From contig NZ_SGXT01000011.1 of assembly GCF_004216855.1 (NCBI RefSeq), positions 186,001-250,000 on the forward strand: DNA of 64,000 nucleotides. The letters are read 5' to 3'. The first letter of the stretch is position 1, and each line of letters starts with the position of its first letter. Positions 1,097 to 7,119 of the stretch are shown piece by piece. This DNA is from Microcella alkaliphila (GTDB taxonomy: Bacteria > Actinomycetota > Actinomycetes > Actinomycetales > Microbacteriaceae). The position numbers and the translations under genes were made by a program. The notes below the pieces were generated by a model. That model searched no databases. It was not told the DNA's origin and worked only from the letters and a program-made list of their open reading frames with translations.

Positions 1097-1233
1097 GGCG
1101 CATATCCTTCAGTTCGGTTCGGTCGAGGGTCCATCGTGACGCGTGCACCCGAGCGGCGGCTGGGTGGTCTCTGCGCCGCCTTGCCCGGCATTCCACCGAC
1201 ACGCCGACGGAATGTCGGTGCAGGTTGCCATAT

Positions 1234-1249
1234 TCGAACGTATGTTCGA
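1234..1249. promoter_or_regulatory. LexA (SOS) box upstream of imuA
   Basis: TCGAACGTATGTTCGA is a perfect palindromic match to the actinobacterial SOS box TCGAAC-N4-GTTCGA. Its centre (GTAT) also fits the mycobacterial RNNY preference. It lies 11 bp before the preferred GTG start of imuA, where a repressor would overlap the promoter. This implies DNA-damage induction of imuA-imuB-dnaE2. Confidence 0.9.
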
Positions 1250-1259
1250 CCATGGAGAG

Positions 1260-1982
1260 GTGCCCACACTCGCCCTCGCCTCCCCCCAGCCGACCCCGTC
1301 GGCTGTTGAGGCGTTGCAGGCGCGCATCAACGCGATGCAGCGCACGACGCTCGACACGAAGCTCACGCCGACCCACGAGGCCCTCGCCGATCTTCTGCCC
1401 GACGGCGGGCTGAAGCAGGGCGCCGCCTACTCAGTGACCTCGTCGAGCGCGCTCGTGATGGCGCTGCTCGCCGGGCCGTCGCAGGCCGGCTCGTGGTGCG
1501 GCGTCGTCGGCGTGCCCGAGTTCGGCGTCGAGGCGGCCGAAGCGCTCGGCATCGACCTCGACCGGCTCGTGCTCGTGCCGCACCCCGGTGACCAGTGGCT
1601 CACCGTCACCGCGGCGATCGCCGACGCCATGAGCGTCATCGTCGTGAAGCCCGGGCGCGCGGCGAGCGACGGCGCCGTGACGAAGCTCGCCGGGCGGCTG
1701 CGCGAGCGCGGGTCAACCCTGCTCGTGCTCGGCACCTGGCCACAGACGGAGGCCATGATCAGCATCACCGCGAGCCGCTGGTCGGGGCTTGGGCAGGGCT
1801 GGGGCTACCTCACCCAGCGCGAGGTCACCGTCACCGTCAGCTCGCGCCGCTCCCCCACACCGCGCAGCGGCCGGCTCGTCTTGCCCGACCCCAAGGTGGG
1901 CATTCGGCGTCTCGACCCGCCGCTCGGCGCCGGCCGTGGCCGCACAGCATCGGTGACGCCCCTCCCGCGGAGGGCCGGCTGA
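1260..1982 (+). CDS. imuA: ImuA-type accessory protein of the translesion mutasome
   Basis: The product is 240 residues and resembles the actinobacterial ImuA' proteins, RecA-fold relatives that partner ImuB and DnaE2 in SOS mutagenesis. The family segment LLPDGGLKQGAAYSV is at residues 45-59. Where RecA would have a Walker A loop the sequence is SSSALVMALLAG, so ATP binding is doubtful. GTG 1260 is chosen because it is the first in-frame start downstream of the LexA box. ATG 1242 lies inside the box and ATG 1212 lies before it; both are possible alternatives. No good ribosome binding site is visible for any of them. The stop overlaps the imuB start as TGATG, indicating translational coupling. 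Confidence 0.85.
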   Translation: MPTLALASPQPTPSAVEALQARINAMQRTTLDTKLTPTHEALADLLPDGGLKQGAAYSVTSSSALVMALLAGPSQAGSWCGVVGVPEFGVEAAEALGIDLDRLVLVPHPGDQWLTVTAAIADAMSVIVVKPGRAASDGAVTKLAGRLRERGSTLLVLGTWPQTEAMISITASRWSGLGQGWGYLTQREVTVTVSSRRSPTPRSGRLVLPDPKVGIRRLDPPLGAGRGRTASVTPLPRRAG

Positions 1983-3556
1983 TGCAGCGCACCATGGTCG
2001 TCTGGGTGCCCGACTGGCCGGTGATCGCCGCGGTGCGCGACGAGGCGGCGCCTGCCGGTGACGCGCATCCCATCGCGATCATGGCCGCGAACCGCGTGGT
2101 CGCCTGCTCGGCCGCCGCCCGCGCCCACGGCGTGCACCGGGGGCAGAAGCGCCGCGACGCGCAAGGGGCCTGCCCGCACCTCGTCGTCGTCGCCCACGAC
2201 GACGACCGCGAGCACCGGCACTTCGCCCCCCTCATCGACGCCGTTGAAGCCCGCGCCGCTGGCGTGCAGATCGTGCGCCCCGGCCTTGTCGCGCTCGCCG
2301 CGCGCGGCCCCGCCCGCTACTACGGCGGCGAAAAGGCGGCGGCGCTCGCGCTCATCAGTGCGGTTCTCGACGAGGGGGTGCCGGATGCACGCGTCGGGGT
2401 CTCCGACGGACCCTTCGCCGCCGACCGCGCCGCTCGCGACACGCGAGCCCACGCCCCCGTGCGCATCGTCGCCGAGGGCGCCGCTGCCGCCTACCTCGCG
2501 CCGCTGCCGGTGTCGGCGCTCGCCGACCCTGAGCTCGCCACCCTGCTCACGCGGCTCGGCGTGCGCACCCTCGGAGCCTTCACCGCCCTAGCAGCAGCCT
2601 CCGTGCGCGAACGCTTCGGGCCGAGCGGTGCGCACGCGCACGCGCTCGCCGGTGCTATCGACGCGACCCCGATCATCCCGAGAACACCGCCCGACGACCT
2701 CGAACGCGTCATCGAGCTCGAGCCGCCGCTCGACCGGGTCGACCAGATCGCCTTCGCCGTGCGGCAACTCGCCGACGACGTCATCGAAACCCTCGCCGCC
2801 CGGCGGCTCGTCGCCACCGCCGTCAGGGTGAGCGTGCGCGACGAGTCGGGGCGCGAATCCGACCGGGTGTGGCTGCACCCGCGCGCGTTCCGGGCGAGCG
2901 AGATCGTCGACCGGGTGCGCTGGCAGCTGAGCGGTTCCACGCGCCGGCTCGGCTCCACGCCCGACGCGGCGCTCGGGCCCGGCCTCGCCTCGCCCGTCGA
3001 CCGGGTGAGCATCGCGCCCGACAGCGTCGACGCCACCGCCAACCACGAGCCGGGGCTCTGGGGAGGCGAACCCGACGACCGGGTACACCACGCCCTGTCG
3101 CGCGTGCAGAGCATGCTCGGGCACGAATCCGTCGTCACCGCGCAGCGGGCCGGCGGGCGCACCCTCGCCGAGCGGCGCATCCTCGTGCCGTGGGGCGACC
3201 GCGCCGTGCACCAGCGCCCGCTCGACCGGCCCTGGCCGGGCGCCCTGCCGCAGCCGGCGCCCGCGACCGTGTTCCCCAGCCGGCACGCCGTCACCGTCAT
3301 CGACGGTCGCGGCGACATCGTGCTCGTCGACGACCGACTGCGGGTCACCGGCGCGCCCGCCGCGTTCGCGCCCGCCGCCGGAGGGGCGACCCGACCCATC
3401 CGATCGTGGGCGGGGCCCTGGCCGCTCGACGAACGCTGGTGGGATGCGACGCAGCGCCGCCGACTGCACCGGCTGCAGGTCGTCGACGAGGCCGGCATCG
3501 CCTGGCTGCTCGTGCTCGACGGCGGCAGCTGGTGGGCGGAAGCGCGGTACGACTGA
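1982..3556 (+). CDS. imuB: ImuB, Y-family polymerase homologue of the mutasome
   Basis: This is a 524-residue protein with Y-family polymerase architecture. The N-terminus MVVWVPDWPV aligns with the position of the metal-binding VDMDAFFASVE motif of DinB, but the usual acidic set is missing. The SIDEA-type second motif is also absent (compare the true DinB at 11992-13254). ImuB proteins are known as catalytically dead adaptors that bind the beta clamp and recruit ImuA and DnaE2. The start is fixed by the TGATG overlap with imuA. Its own stop TGA (3554-3556) overlaps the first ATG of the downstream mini-ORF ladder. Regulation is from the SOS box at 1234-1249. Confidence 0.9.
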   Translation: MQRTMVVWVPDWPVIAAVRDEAAPAGDAHPIAIMAANRVVACSAAARAHGVHRGQKRRDAQGACPHLVVVAHDDDREHRHFAPLIDAVEARAAGVQIVRPGLVALAARGPARYYGGEKAAALALISAVLDEGVPDARVGVSDGPFAADRAARDTRAHAPVRIVAEGAAAAYLAPLPVSALADPELATLLTRLGVRTLGAFTALAAASVRERFGPSGAHAHALAGAIDATPIIPRTPPDDLERVIELEPPLDRVDQIAFAVRQLADDVIETLAARRLVATAVRVSVRDESGRESDRVWLHPRAFRASEIVDRVRWQLSGSTRRLGSTPDAALGPGLASPVDRVSIAPDSVDATANHEPGLWGGEPDDRVHHALSRVQSMLGHESVVTAQRAGGRTLAERRILVPWGDRAVHQRPLDRPWPGALPQPAPATVFPSRHAVTVIDGRGDIVLVDDRLRVTGAPAAFAPAAGGATRPIRSWAGPWPLDERWWDATQRRRLHRLQVVDEAGIAWLLVLDGGSWWAEARYD

Positions 3557-3604
3557 TGGTGGGCGAGCACTGATGGGTGGCGAGCACTGATGGGTGGCGA
3601 GCAC
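3554..3604 (+). repeat. Three 17-bp tandem repeats forming a mini-ORF ladder between imuB and dnaE2
   Basis: The units lie at 3554-3570, 3571-3587 and 3588-3604; the last two are identical (TGATGGGTGGCGAGCAC) and the first differs by a GT/TG swap. Each unit contains an ATG (3556, 3573, 3590) that opens a five-codon ORF, MVGEH or MGGEH. Each of these stops at a TGA that overlaps the next ATG by one base. The third mini-ORF ends on the ATG of dnaE2 (3607). imuB is thus linked to dnaE2 by four consecutive TGATG stop/start junctions. The dnaE2 start itself (ATGGGGTGGCAC) resembles a fourth, diverged unit, suggesting tandem duplication of the junction. Confidence 0.9.
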
Positions 3605-3606
3605 TG

Positions 3607-6600
3607 ATGGGGTGGCACAACCCGCCCATCCCCTGGAGTGAACTCGAGCGAACCCTCCGTTCGGGCAACCGCCCAGACCCTTCGCTGCCCGAGGTGGGCG
3701 ATGGCAGCGACTCGCCCGCGTGGTCGAACAAGCGGGCCCCCTACCGGCCGGGTCGGGTGGAACAGCCCGACCCCGAGACGGTCGTGCCGTACGCCGAACT
3801 GCACGCGCACTCGAGCTTCTCGTTCCTCGACGGCGCGTCCAGCCCCGAGGAGCTGCTCGAAGAGGCCGCGCGGCTCGGTCTCACCGGGCTTGCCCTGACC
3901 GACCACGACGGGTTCTACGGCGCCGTGCGCATGGCCGAGGCGGCAGAACCCTATGGCCTCACGACGGTGTTCGGCGCCGAACTCTCACTCGGTCTCACCA
4001 AGCCGCAGCTGGGCGAACCCGACCCGGAGGGTACCCACCTGCTCGTGCTCGCTCGCGGCCAGGAGGGCTATCACCGGCTCGCCGCCGCCCTCACCGACGG
4101 GCAGCTTGCCGGCGGCGCCAAGGGGCGCCCCGTCTACGACCTCGACGTGCTCGCCCAGCACGCCGGGCGCGGCGGCGACGCCACGGCACCCGGCCACTGG
4201 GTGATCCTGACCGGCTGCCGCAAAGGCACCGTGCGCACGGCGCTCACCGCCGGCGACCCGAACGGGCAGACGGTGCCGACCCGCGCATCCATGGAGGCGG
4301 CCGGGCGCGAACTCGACGCGCTGACCGAGCGATTTGGGCGCGAGAGTGTCGTCGTCGAGCTGTTCGACCACGGGCGTCCGCTCGACACCGTCTACAACGA
4401 TGCGCTGGCCGCCCTCGCCGCCGAGCGGGGTCTGCCCATCGTCGCCACCGGTGCCGTGCACTACGCCCACCCCGGCCGCTACCCGCTCGCGAGCGCCTTC
4501 GCGGGCCTGCGCGCGCGGCGCAGCCTTGACGACATGGACGGGTGGCTGCCCGCCGCCGGCACCGCACACCTGCGCAGCGGCGCCGAAATGCAGCGGCTGT
4601 TCGCCCGGTACCCCGGTGCCGTTGACCGCAGCGTCGAGCTCGCCCGCGAGCTCGGGTTCTCACTGCGCCAGGCGAAGCCGAAGCTGCCGAAGCTGCCCGT
4701 GCCCGAGGGGCACACCCCCATGAGTTGGCTGCGCGAACTCGTGTGGCAGGCGGTGCCGCAGAAGTACCCCGACGCCTCCGACGCCGACCGAGCGCGCATC
4801 GCGCGCGAGCTCGACGTGATCGAGCAGAAAGACTTCCCCGGCTACTTTCTCATCGTGCACGACATCGTGCAGTTCGCCCGCCGCCGCGGCATCCTCTGCC
4901 AGGGTCGCGGCTCGGCGGCGAACTCGGCGGTCTGTTACCTGCTCGACATCACCGCTGTCGACTCGATCTATTACACGCTGCCCTTCGAGCGCTTCCTGTC
5001 GGCGCTGCGCGACGAAGAGCCCGATATCGACGTCGATTTCGACTCCGACCGGCGCGAAGAGGTCATCCAGTACGTGTACGAGACGTACGGCCGGCGCAAC
5101 GCCGCCCAGGTCGCCAACGTCATCTCGTACCGGCCGAAGAACGCCGTGCGCGACATGGCGAAGGCGCTCGGCTACTCGACCGGTCAGCAAGACGCGTGGA
5201 GCCGTCAGGTCGAACGCTGGGGTGCCGTGCTCTCGAGCGACGACCACGACATCCCCGACGCGGTCGTCGACCTCGCCCAGCAGGTGCTCACGTACCCGCG
5301 GCACCTCGGCATCCACTCGGGCGGCATGGTGCTCACCGACCGGCCCGTCGGCGAGATCGTGCCCATCGAGCACGCGCGTATGACGAAGCGCACCGTGCTG
5401 CAGTGGGACAAAGACGACTGCGCCTGGATGGGCCTTGTGAAGTTCGACCTGCTCGGCCTCGGTATGCTCGCCGCCCTGCAGTACGCCTTCGACCTCATCG
5501 GCGACCACCTTGGCGAACGGTGGGAACTCGCGACCATCCCGAAAGAAGAGCAGACCACCTACGACATGCTGTGTCGCGCCGACTCGATCGGTGTTTTCCA
5601 GGTCGAGAGTCGCGCCCAGATGGGGCTCTTGCCGCGCCTGCAACCCCGGAAGTTCTACGACCTCGTCGTGCAGATCGCGCTGATTCGCCCCGGGCCCATT
5701 CAGGGTGGCGCCGTGCACCCCTTCGTCAAGCGCAAGCTCGGCGAAGAGCCCGTTACCTATGACCACCCGAAGCTCGTCGAACCGCTCGAGCGCACCCTCG
5801 GCGTGCCCATCTTCCAAGAGCAGCTCATGCAGATCGCCATGGCGGTCGGCGGCTGCACGGGCGACGACGCCGACCTGCTGCGCCGCGCCATGGGCTCGAA
5901 GCGCGGCCTCGAACGCATCGAATCGCTGCGCGAAACCCTGTACGCCGGCATGGCCTCCAACGGCATCACCGGGCGCCTCGCCGACGAGATCTACGCCCGC
6001 ATCCAGGCGTTCGCGAACTTCGGCTTCGCCGAAAGCCACTCCCTCAGCTTCGCCCTGCTCGTCTACGCCAGCTCGTGGATCAAACTGCACTACCCGGGCG
6101 TCTTCCTCGCCTCCCTCCTACGCGCCCAGCCGATGGGCTTCTACTCCCCTGCCTCGCTGACGGCCGACGCCGAACGGCACGGCGTCGAGGTGCGCGGCCC
6201 CTGCATTGTGCGCTCCGGCGTCGAGGCGGGCCTCGAACGGGTCGACCTCACGGTCGACGACCCGTTCTCGCCGCTCACTGCGGATGCTCGCCGCGCGGCA
6301 CCAACGGGGCTCGCCTCGTGCACGCACCGCGTGCATCCGCCCGTTCCCGAGTTTCGACCAGACTCGCGCGACGGCGAACTGGAGGATCTGGTGCCGCACC
6401 GCCGCGACGGCGAGCTCGCCGTGCGGATGGGCCTCGGCGCGGTGTCAGGGCTCGGGAAAGAGACCGCCGAGAAGGTCATCGCCGAGCGTGAGCGCTACGG
6501 CCCCTACCGCGACCTCACCGACCTCGTGTACCGCACCGGGCTCACGGCGGCGCAGCTCGAGTCGCTCGCCACCGCCGGAGCCTTTGAGGTGTGGGGCATG

Positions 6601-7119
6601 ACGCGGCGCGAGGCGCTGTGGGCCGCCGGTGCTGCGGCGCAGGCGCGCCCCGAATACCTGCCGGGCAGTGTCGTGGCGATCCAACCGCCGCTGTTCGACG
6701 ACCTCGAACCGGTCGAGCGCATGGTCGCCGACCTCGTCACGACCGGCGTCGCCCCGGGCGACCACCCCGTGCGCTACGCCCGCGAGCGGTTGCGTGCCCG
6801 CGGGGTGCTGAGCGCCCGCGAGCTGCGCAGCGCCGAGCCGGGGCGCCGCATCGAGGTCGCGGGCGTCGTCACGCACCGGCAGCGGCCCGCGACGGCGAGC
6901 GGCATAACCTTCCTGAACCTCGAAGACGAGACGGGGCTCGCCAACATCATCTGCTCGGTCGGGCTGTGGGGGCGCTACCGGCGCACCGTCCGCGAGAGCC
7001 GGGCGCTCATCGTGCGCGGCATCCTCGAGCGCTCGCCCGAGGGGGTCGTGAACGTCGTCGCCGACCGGGTCGACGCGTTGTCACTGAAAGCCACCATGCC
7101 GAGTCGCGACTTTCGCTGA
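3607..7119 (+). CDS. dnaE2: Error-prone DNA polymerase III alpha subunit DnaE2
   Basis: The product is 1170 residues, within the normal range for DnaE2. A PHP domain begins with ELHAHS (64-69) and TDHDG (98-102). The catalytic PDIDVDFD motif is at about 472-479. Helix-hairpin-helix and OB-fold regions follow, with FLNLEDETGLANII near 1100. DnaE2 is the translesion polymerase of the ImuA/ImuB/DnaE2 mutasome and acts at the replication fork after DNA damage. ATG 3607 is chosen because the family N-terminus MGWHNPPIPWSELER starts there. An in-frame GTG at 3577 would read through two repeat units. Expression depends on the SOS promoter and on coupling through the mini-ORF ladder. Confidence 0.95.
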   Translation: MGWHNPPIPWSELERTLRSGNRPDPSLPEVGDGSDSPAWSNKRAPYRPGRVEQPDPETVVPYAELHAHSSFSFLDGASSPEELLEEAARLGLTGLALTDHDGFYGAVRMAEAAEPYGLTTVFGAELSLGLTKPQLGEPDPEGTHLLVLARGQEGYHRLAAALTDGQLAGGAKGRPVYDLDVLAQHAGRGGDATAPGHWVILTGCRKGTVRTALTAGDPNGQTVPTRASMEAAGRELDALTERFGRESVVVELFDHGRPLDTVYNDALAALAAERGLPIVATGAVHYAHPGRYPLASAFAGLRARRSLDDMDGWLPAAGTAHLRSGAEMQRLFARYPGAVDRSVELARELGFSLRQAKPKLPKLPVPEGHTPMSWLRELVWQAVPQKYPDASDADRARIARELDVIEQKDFPGYFLIVHDIVQFARRRGILCQGRGSAANSAVCYLLDITAVDSIYYTLPFERFLSALRDEEPDIDVDFDSDRREEVIQYVYETYGRRNAAQVANVISYRPKNAVRDMAKALGYSTGQQDAWSRQVERWGAVLSSDDHDIPDAVVDLAQQVLTYPRHLGIHSGGMVLTDRPVGEIVPIEHARMTKRTVLQWDKDDCAWMGLVKFDLLGLGMLAALQYAFDLIGDHLGERWELATIPKEEQTTYDMLCRADSIGVFQVESRAQMGLLPRLQPRKFYDLVVQIALIRPGPIQGGAVHPFVKRKLGEEPVTYDHPKLVEPLERTLGVPIFQEQLMQIAMAVGGCTGDDADLLRRAMGSKRGLERIESLRETLYAGMASNGITGRLADEIYARIQAFANFGFAESHSLSFALLVYASSWIKLHYPGVFLASLLRAQPMGFYSPASLTADAERHGVEVRGPCIVRSGVEAGLERVDLTVDDPFSPLTADARRAAPTGLASCTHRVHPPVPEFRPDSRDGELEDLVPHRRDGELAVRMGLGAVSGLGKETAEKVIAERERYGPYRDLTDLVYRTGLTAAQLESLATAGAFEVWGMTRREALWAAGAAAQARPEYLPGSVVAIQPPLFDDLEPVERMVADLVTTGVAPGDHPVRYARERLRARGVLSARELRSAEPGRRIEVAGVVTHRQRPATASGITFLNLEDETGLANIICSVGLWGRYRRTVRESRALIVRGILERSPEGVVNVVADRVDALSLKATMPSRDFR

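Follow-up and report, generated by a model that had tools for sequence, protein, structure and literature searches.

The imuB and dnaE2 genes of Microcella alkaliphila are joined by a ladder of three five-codon open reading frames (ORFs). The window analysed here is a stretch of 64,000 nucleotides (assembly GCF_004216855.1, contig NZ_SGXT01000011.1, positions 186,001 to 250,000, forward strand), and all coordinates refer to it. Judging from comparisons between genomes, this array most likely serves as a translational-coupling bridge, in which mini-cistrons carry termination and reinitiation over the spacer between the two genes. Ribosomes ending imuB would reinitiate at the ATG overlapping the imuB stop, read a five-codon mini-cistron, terminate at a TGA overlapping the next ATG and repeat the step, until the last termination sets them on the dnaE2 start; DnaE2 synthesis would then depend on these steps. 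The peptides of the mini-ORFs would have no role, selection acting on the reading itself and on the frame. The elements of the junction, all on the forward strand, are as follows.

1982..3556: imuB, with the IMS Y-family domain (PF00817, E 9.4e-10)
3556..3573: mini-ORF 1, MVGEH and stop, its start overlapping the imuB stop as TGATG
3573..3590: mini-ORF 2, MGGEH and stop, a 17-bp unit
3590..3607: mini-ORF 3, MGGEH and stop, its stop overlapping the dnaE2 start as TGATG
3607..7119: dnaE2, with PHP, DNA_pol3_alpha, finger and HHH domains (Pfam scan)
3552..3616: 17-bp tandem array of 3.8 copies, extending into the first bases of dnaE2 (tandem-repeat listing)

The mini-ORFs were read directly from the window, and the first-pass annotation, which had described three five-codon ORFs linked through TGATG from imuB to dnaE2, is exact in this respect. 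The imuB gene ends with TAC GAC TGA (stop at 3554-3556) and dnaE2 begins with ATG GGG TGG CAC at 3607, a start of the MG(W/F/Y) type frequent among relatives. Each mini-ORF is 18 nt long with one base common to each neighbour, which makes four TGATG overlaps of the -1 type between the two genes. Units 2 and 3 are identical, and unit 1 differs at two positions. Among the 48 tandem repeats listed for the window the array has the top score, 107 against 62 for the next best. A 22-nt stretch of it has three matches at up to three mismatches in the M. alkaliphila genome containing the window, all inside the array itself; no dispersed copies were found in this genome at that threshold, and the array is a single locus.

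The window alone would prove little, since a unit length of 3n-1 has about a one-in-three chance given one duplication spanning a TGATG. The evidential weight comes from the relatives, because one, two and three units are found in three species with no other indel in about 3.6 kb. The Microcella sample comprised 26 genomes, one per species, of which 23 have a DnaE2 locus and the other three only weak polymerase matches; imuB lies at most 90 nt from dnaE2 in 21 of the 23. Three units are present in the window, two in its nearest relative (G002) and one in the genome taken as M. putealis CV2 (G010). The alignment of the window with G002 (3583 nt, 95.3% identical) has a sole indel of 17 bp, and that with G010 (3566 nt, 88.8% identical) a sole indel of 34 bp. 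The junctions thus differ by whole units only, in line with the expectation of the first-pass annotation, and its claim that the 17-bp length keeps the chain working while units are gained or lost agrees with three, two and one units, all with intact chains. The ladder would have grown by tandem duplication from a bridge of one unit, as in M. putealis, through two units in the nearest relative to three in the window; duplications of 3n-1 bases would persist because they leave the chain intact.

An unbroken chain of stops and starts is present in all 21 Microcella with adjacent imuB and dnaE2. The 18 without the ladder have no such repeat; in each of them one mini-ORF, 11-31 codons long, forms the bridge. 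It begins at an ATG within the last codons of imuB (TATGAC, then the stop) and ends within the TGATG at the dnaE2 start; the peptides are unrelated apart from the forced ends. The spacers range from 27 to 87 nt and every one is a multiple of 3. At least ten changes of spacer length are placed on the tree, all multiples of 3, and the chance of this is (1/3)^10 = 1.7e-5. In the 27 bridged spacers with a TATGAC start there are no stops in the frame of the mini-ORF, whereas the two remaining frames contain 8 and 4, the zero holding by construction as bridged loci were preselected. That most Microcella carry one unrelated bridging mini-ORF, and that other 17-bp ladders occur in the family, lay beyond the single-sequence view of the first-pass annotation.

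Some Microcella loci depart from this arrangement. In L010 and L014 about 600 nt of other DNA separate imuB from dnaE2 and, judged by eye, seem to include a gene of antitoxin type on the reverse strand, and CTGATG is retained at dnaE2. One genome (G018, contig C20) has a second DnaE2 copy, L027, 70% identical over the matched part, with an SOS-type palindrome directly upstream and imuB 437 nt away.

DnaE2 was found in 216 of 299 genomes of the Microbacteriaceae. Loci were taken among the matches listed, as 23 loci and 100 fetched stretches, some in already covered genera being skipped; together with 24 Microcella loci this gave 146 classified loci, L058 (imuB 80 nt away, no chain) being left out for want of a recognised start. 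They comprise 29 direct overlaps, 53 bridged junctions, 3 with an overlapping stop that lack a bridge, 37 in which no stop overlaps the dnaE2 start, 18 with imuB more than 150 nt away, 5 without imuB and 1 duplicate. The chain is unbroken in 85 of the 122 adjacent junctions surveyed. Where a stop other than that of imuB overlaps the dnaE2 start, 53 of 56 junctions are bridged versus 16.9 expected from spacer shuffles with random frame (P 4e-26, relatedness ignored). Averaged by genus, bridging reaches 18.75 of 21 versus 6.2 expected (P of at least 18, 5e-8). In a named collection, 9 of 10 junctions of the same type not identical to the first set are bridged by hand count, one of the nine, from Actinomadura, being outside the family. 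The miss is L203, where a 51-codon mini-ORF ends 2 nt ahead of a GTG start; it was scored unbridged since its 150-nt gap sat on the cut-off and, although near-bridged, is still counted as a miss.

The peptides of the mini-ORFs show no conservation across the 53 bridged loci. A conserved peptide was accordingly rejected, the sequences being unrelated beyond the forced ends, and so was control by a leader peptide or attenuator, given the unconserved peptides and an RNA fold of z +1.48 at the junction.

Of the junctions, 40 were not scored as bridged. A start codon is nevertheless present at the end of imuB in 22 of these, and for 3 of the 22 the mini-ORF exits through ATGA. In 13 of the 22 (L042, L045, L049, L052, L057, L059, L087, L111, L122, L136, L155, L158 and L163) it stops exactly 14 nt inside dnaE2, within the dnaE2 start sequence itself; 12 of them lack an overlapping stop, the other being L158.

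Evidence beyond the Microbacteriaceae is thin. Of 23 loci read for this purpose, 21 are truly outside the family (L058 and L285 are inside), and 9 of the 21 have an upstream imuB match. L271 is a direct overlap, and bridges of nine and 25 codons are present in L266 and L273, respectively. Long open chains over 160-261 nt in L270, L275 and L276 were not counted as evidence, and L269, L279 and L282 have imuB upstream and no chain. In the named collection one Actinoplanes and one Actinomadura locus are bridged.

A 50-nt untranslated gap should uncouple imuB from dnaE2 unless it is read, because spacers of 38 nt already curb reinitiation. In a reporter study covering E. coli and Haloferax (PMC10666635; this and the other sources are cited from excerpts), two of three E. 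coli gene pairs lost 80-90% of reinitiation across such a spacer and the third lost all of it. The mini-ORFs would remove the gap, which would explain why the spacers vary in length and stay in frame, why the peptides are irrelevant and why a chained dnaE2 seldom has its own Shine-Dalgarno (SD) sequence. The last point was seen with the canonical SD 5-mer, present ahead of dnaE2 in 5 of 56 bridged junctions and none of 29 direct overlaps, that is, in 5 of 85 chained junctions, as opposed to 13 of 18 junctions where imuB has no start codon at its end and a chain is therefore impossible; where a mini-ORF exists but its frame or spacing differs, the 5-mer is present in 11 of 19. The dnaE2 gene of the window has no canonical SD 5-mer ahead of its start. 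Stepwise reinitiation, suggested in the first-pass annotation, appears to be the best account of the frame conservation together with this complementary SD pattern. The frame-keeping bridges, changing in length and sequence in many relatives, suggest that the handover itself matters, and the ladder is a derived form of this wider bridging habit.

Several observations weigh against the coupling bridge. The SD contrast has a raw P of 5e-7, which overstates the independent evidence because the 13 loci with an SD belong to four genera; the strict-motif comparison was made, moreover, after the duplex-energy measure. The duplex energy to the anti-SD gives no clear contrast: the medians of bridged junctions are -8.4 and, in Microcella, -7.5 kcal/mol, weaker than the -8.8 of junctions without an overlapping stop (P 0.014), direct overlaps have the strongest median, -10.1, and all chained versus unchained junctions give P 0.09. 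In the window itself, units 2 and 3 hold a G-rich stretch that may be a weak SD (-8.2 kcal/mol ahead of both dnaE2 and mini-ORF 3, compared with -6.3 ahead of mini-ORF 2), and the fold of 3520-3660 is unremarkable (z +1.48). Among the junctions read, L066, L078 and L158 have an overlapping stop and no bridge, L155 and, by eye, L205 have the mini-ORF in another frame, and dnaE2 lacks an overlapping stop in 37 of the 122 adjacent junctions, 3 of them bridged through ATGA. Finally, in 464 kb of the M. alkaliphila genome, with 303 same-strand pairs, three are bridged: this junction and only two others, both single-step. Eight pairs had a candidate start and 1.1 bridged were expected, so the two others are roughly at chance level. 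Bridging is thus rare, and not a general practice of this genome as far as the sampled 464 kb show.

Ladders of this kind are found elsewhere in the family. The pattern of three TGATG at 17-bp spacing yields arrays in 18 of the 299 genomes, whereas the control patterns yield 4 (reversed), 7 (spacing 16) and 5 (spacing 19); a wide-spacing pattern matched 246 of the 299 and was set aside. Of 19 distinct places 18 were read, and 11, the window included, lie between two coding-like ORFs, versus 1 of 12 for the control spacings (Fisher P 0.005; with the window left out, 10 of 17 versus 1 of 12, P 0.007). Three of the seven spacing-16 genomes have 8-bp arrays (TGATGCCC and similar), themselves 3n-1 units. 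Without these and the M. alkaliphila genome, the contrast between genomes grows to 17 of 298 versus 4 (P 0.003); without these and the window, the junction test weakens to 10 of 17 versus 1 of 9 (P 0.024). The 8-bp arrays are L332 (G148, TGATGCCC), L333 (G220, TGATGCGG) and L338 (G156, TGATGCAC); they are effectively strings of two-codon ORFs and do not lie between coding-like ORFs.

In eight other gene pairs the ladder is flanked by Pfam domains on both sides.

L356: between an HD phosphohydrolase and DnaG primase
L351: between ThiF-rhodanese and MoeA (L352, unscanned, looks alike)
L297: between HemB and a class-III aminotransferase, HemL-like (L296, unscanned, likewise)
L299: between DUF1990 and a radical SAM protein
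L295: between a LuxR-type protein and a PLP enzyme
L292: between a CN-hydrolase and a glycosyltransferase
L291: between two glycosyltransferases
L293: between an AAA-lid (MoxR-like) protein and DUF58

The unit sequences differ between ladders of different genomes, and some ladders are imperfect: L297 (G151) has an early stop in the first unit, the first start of L293 is 2 nt past the stop, some repeats of L292 and L296 are 15 or 18 bp long, which are in-frame lengths, and in L290 the chain breaks off at the end of the array. By the test used, seven of the 18 places (L290, L294, L298, L301, L353, L354 and L355) are not between two coding-like ORFs.

Whether the number of units matters is a separate question from the bridge. 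Tuning of DnaE2 output, or of the ImuB:DnaE2 ratio, by copy number, as proposed in the first-pass annotation, is possible. It is unlikely that graded control of stoichiometry, with each mini-cistron passing on a fixed share of the ribosomes, recurs in the Microbacteriaceae. Extra units may instead be accidents of slippage, tolerated because duplication leaves the chain intact, with real coupling and little or no effect on DnaE2. We give this neutral explanation about an even chance; it is compatible with the bridge and a rival to tuning alone, fits all the data equally well and is held to be more likely than tuning. In its favour, the length and sequence of the bridge drift freely, and direct overlap, single bridge and ladder coexist in one genus: by eye, the HemB-HemL-like junction in six genomes of genus g70 shows two ladders, one bridge and three direct overlaps. 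One unit of L356 agrees with the start of its downstream gene at 13 of the 14 bases that follow the ATG, which is what simple duplication would produce, the other units compared agreeing at only 4-7 of 14. On the other hand, L351 and L352, from two g23 species, have a two-unit ladder at one and the same junction, so ladders can last, although neutral retention explains this as well.

The other alternatives concern the bridge itself. Initiation of dnaE2 from its own weak G-rich ribosome-binding site, the mini-ORFs being by-products, would draw on the G-rich stretch in the units, which is as strong as at many other junctions, yet it gives no reason for the frame conservation or for the scarcity of SD sequences at chained junctions, and we find it rather improbable. 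The frame open from GTG 3577 could extend DnaE2 at its N-terminus, or imuB could be read through into dnaE2, the two genes being in one frame in the 18 non-ladder Microcella, whose spacers are divisible by 3. This is very improbable: 5 of the 18 have a further stop in that frame, direct overlaps and single-step junctions with a TGATG start put the genes in different frames by gap arithmetic, and by eye nothing is evidently conserved ahead of the common MG(W/F/Y)-type start. The architecture, with mini-ORF ends overlapping the flanking genes, is also like that of the mycobacterial interspersed repetitive unit, MIRU (PMC4473831, PMC12548453), but the 17-bp unit, the -1 overlaps, the single locus and the unlike unit sequences at other ladders make the insertion of a MIRU at this junction the least credible of all. 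The coupling bridge stays the preferred reading.

Upstream of imuB, two further elements lie on the forward strand.

1212..1982: upstream gene, probably imuA', exact start uncertain, no Pfam match
1234..1249: palindrome TCGAACGTATGTTCGA, 0 mismatches to the pattern TCGAACNNNNGTTCGA, at the front of the imuA'-like gene

The TGA of the upstream gene, which we take to be imuA' from its operon position, overlaps the imuB ATG as TGATG at 1980-1984. The palindrome resembles the Gram-positive SOS (LexA) box and is probably a LexA site, which would place the imuA'-imuB-dnaE2 operon under SOS control. The true start of the imuA'-like gene may fall just downstream of it.

The junction provides comparative material from nature on the claim that ribosomes, once they have terminated, fail to cross untranslated spacers: lineages overlap the genes, close the gap with an ORF that is in frame but has no meaning of its own, or, for the most part, have a Shine-Dalgarno sequence instead. 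It illustrates how short ORFs can be selected for being read and not for their peptide, and bears on how an error-prone polymerase and its partner ImuB are kept matched. The series of zero to three units offers ready-made constructs for measuring reinitiation per step. Were graded control true, one 17-bp unit would shift the ratio of neighbouring proteins stepwise without ever breaking the frame, and at imuB-dnaE2 the level of the mutagenic polymerase, hence the damage-induced mutation rate, would be heritably adjustable by slippage.

The first-pass annotation knew of no described case of such a ladder; the MIRU mini-ORFs precede it (PMC12548453, PMC4213456). MIRUs contain small ORFs whose ends overlap the contiguous ORFs in the same orientation (PMC4473831), and a 2025 review discusses them as mini-ORFs coupled to the next gene at -4 (PMC12548453). 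In the senX3-regX3 spacer of M. tuberculosis they form tandem units of 77 and 53 bp, three of 77 bp in H37Rv, with a make-up varying between strains (PMC4213456); by our arithmetic both lengths are 3n-1. The likeness lies in repeats within an operon spacer, each a same-direction small ORF overlapping the ends of neighbouring ORFs, and in variable tandem copy number, here three, two and one units between three species. The differences are the unit (17 bp or 5 codons here, 53 and 77 bp in MIRU; PMC4213456), the overlap (TGATG, -1, here, coupling at -4 in MIRU; PMC12548453) and the dispersal (one locus here, apparently by local duplication, a dispersed family in MIRU). Because unit size, overlap type and dispersal all fail, the array is not a MIRU; it appears to work like one, with no sign of homology in the sequences compared.

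Gene pairs overlapping as ATGA or TGATG share the overlap type and the presumed mechanism, but in the cases excerpted from PMC6728339 and PMC10666635 two genes are coupled directly, while here one or several mini-cistrons intervene. Of the features expected for termination-reinitiation, a stop-start overlap of -1/-4 type is present and the frame of the chain is kept in evolution. Short ORFs delivering ribosomes are also known as upstream ORFs (uORFs) and in bicistronic design (reviewed in PMC12548453), as the two-codon minigene of axe-txe (PMC8708949) and as the intergenic mgtQ of Salmonella, for which the codons of the ORF and RNA stem-loops matter as well (PMC8092293). In all of these a short ORF closely upstream enhances or allows translation of the gene that follows, as proposed here, whereas none of them, as far as the excerpts describe them, is a tandem chain tied to the stop of a preceding gene. 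In the open-access literature, no described TGATG ladder or imuB-dnaE2 coupling was noticed beyond MIRU and the cases listed, and the excerpts of PMC10421592, on the mycobacterial mutasome, and of PMC4255298 hold nothing on the imuB-dnaE2 junction. New here are the in-frame bridge, which many genera of the Microbacteriaceae retain, and the recurrent short ladders.

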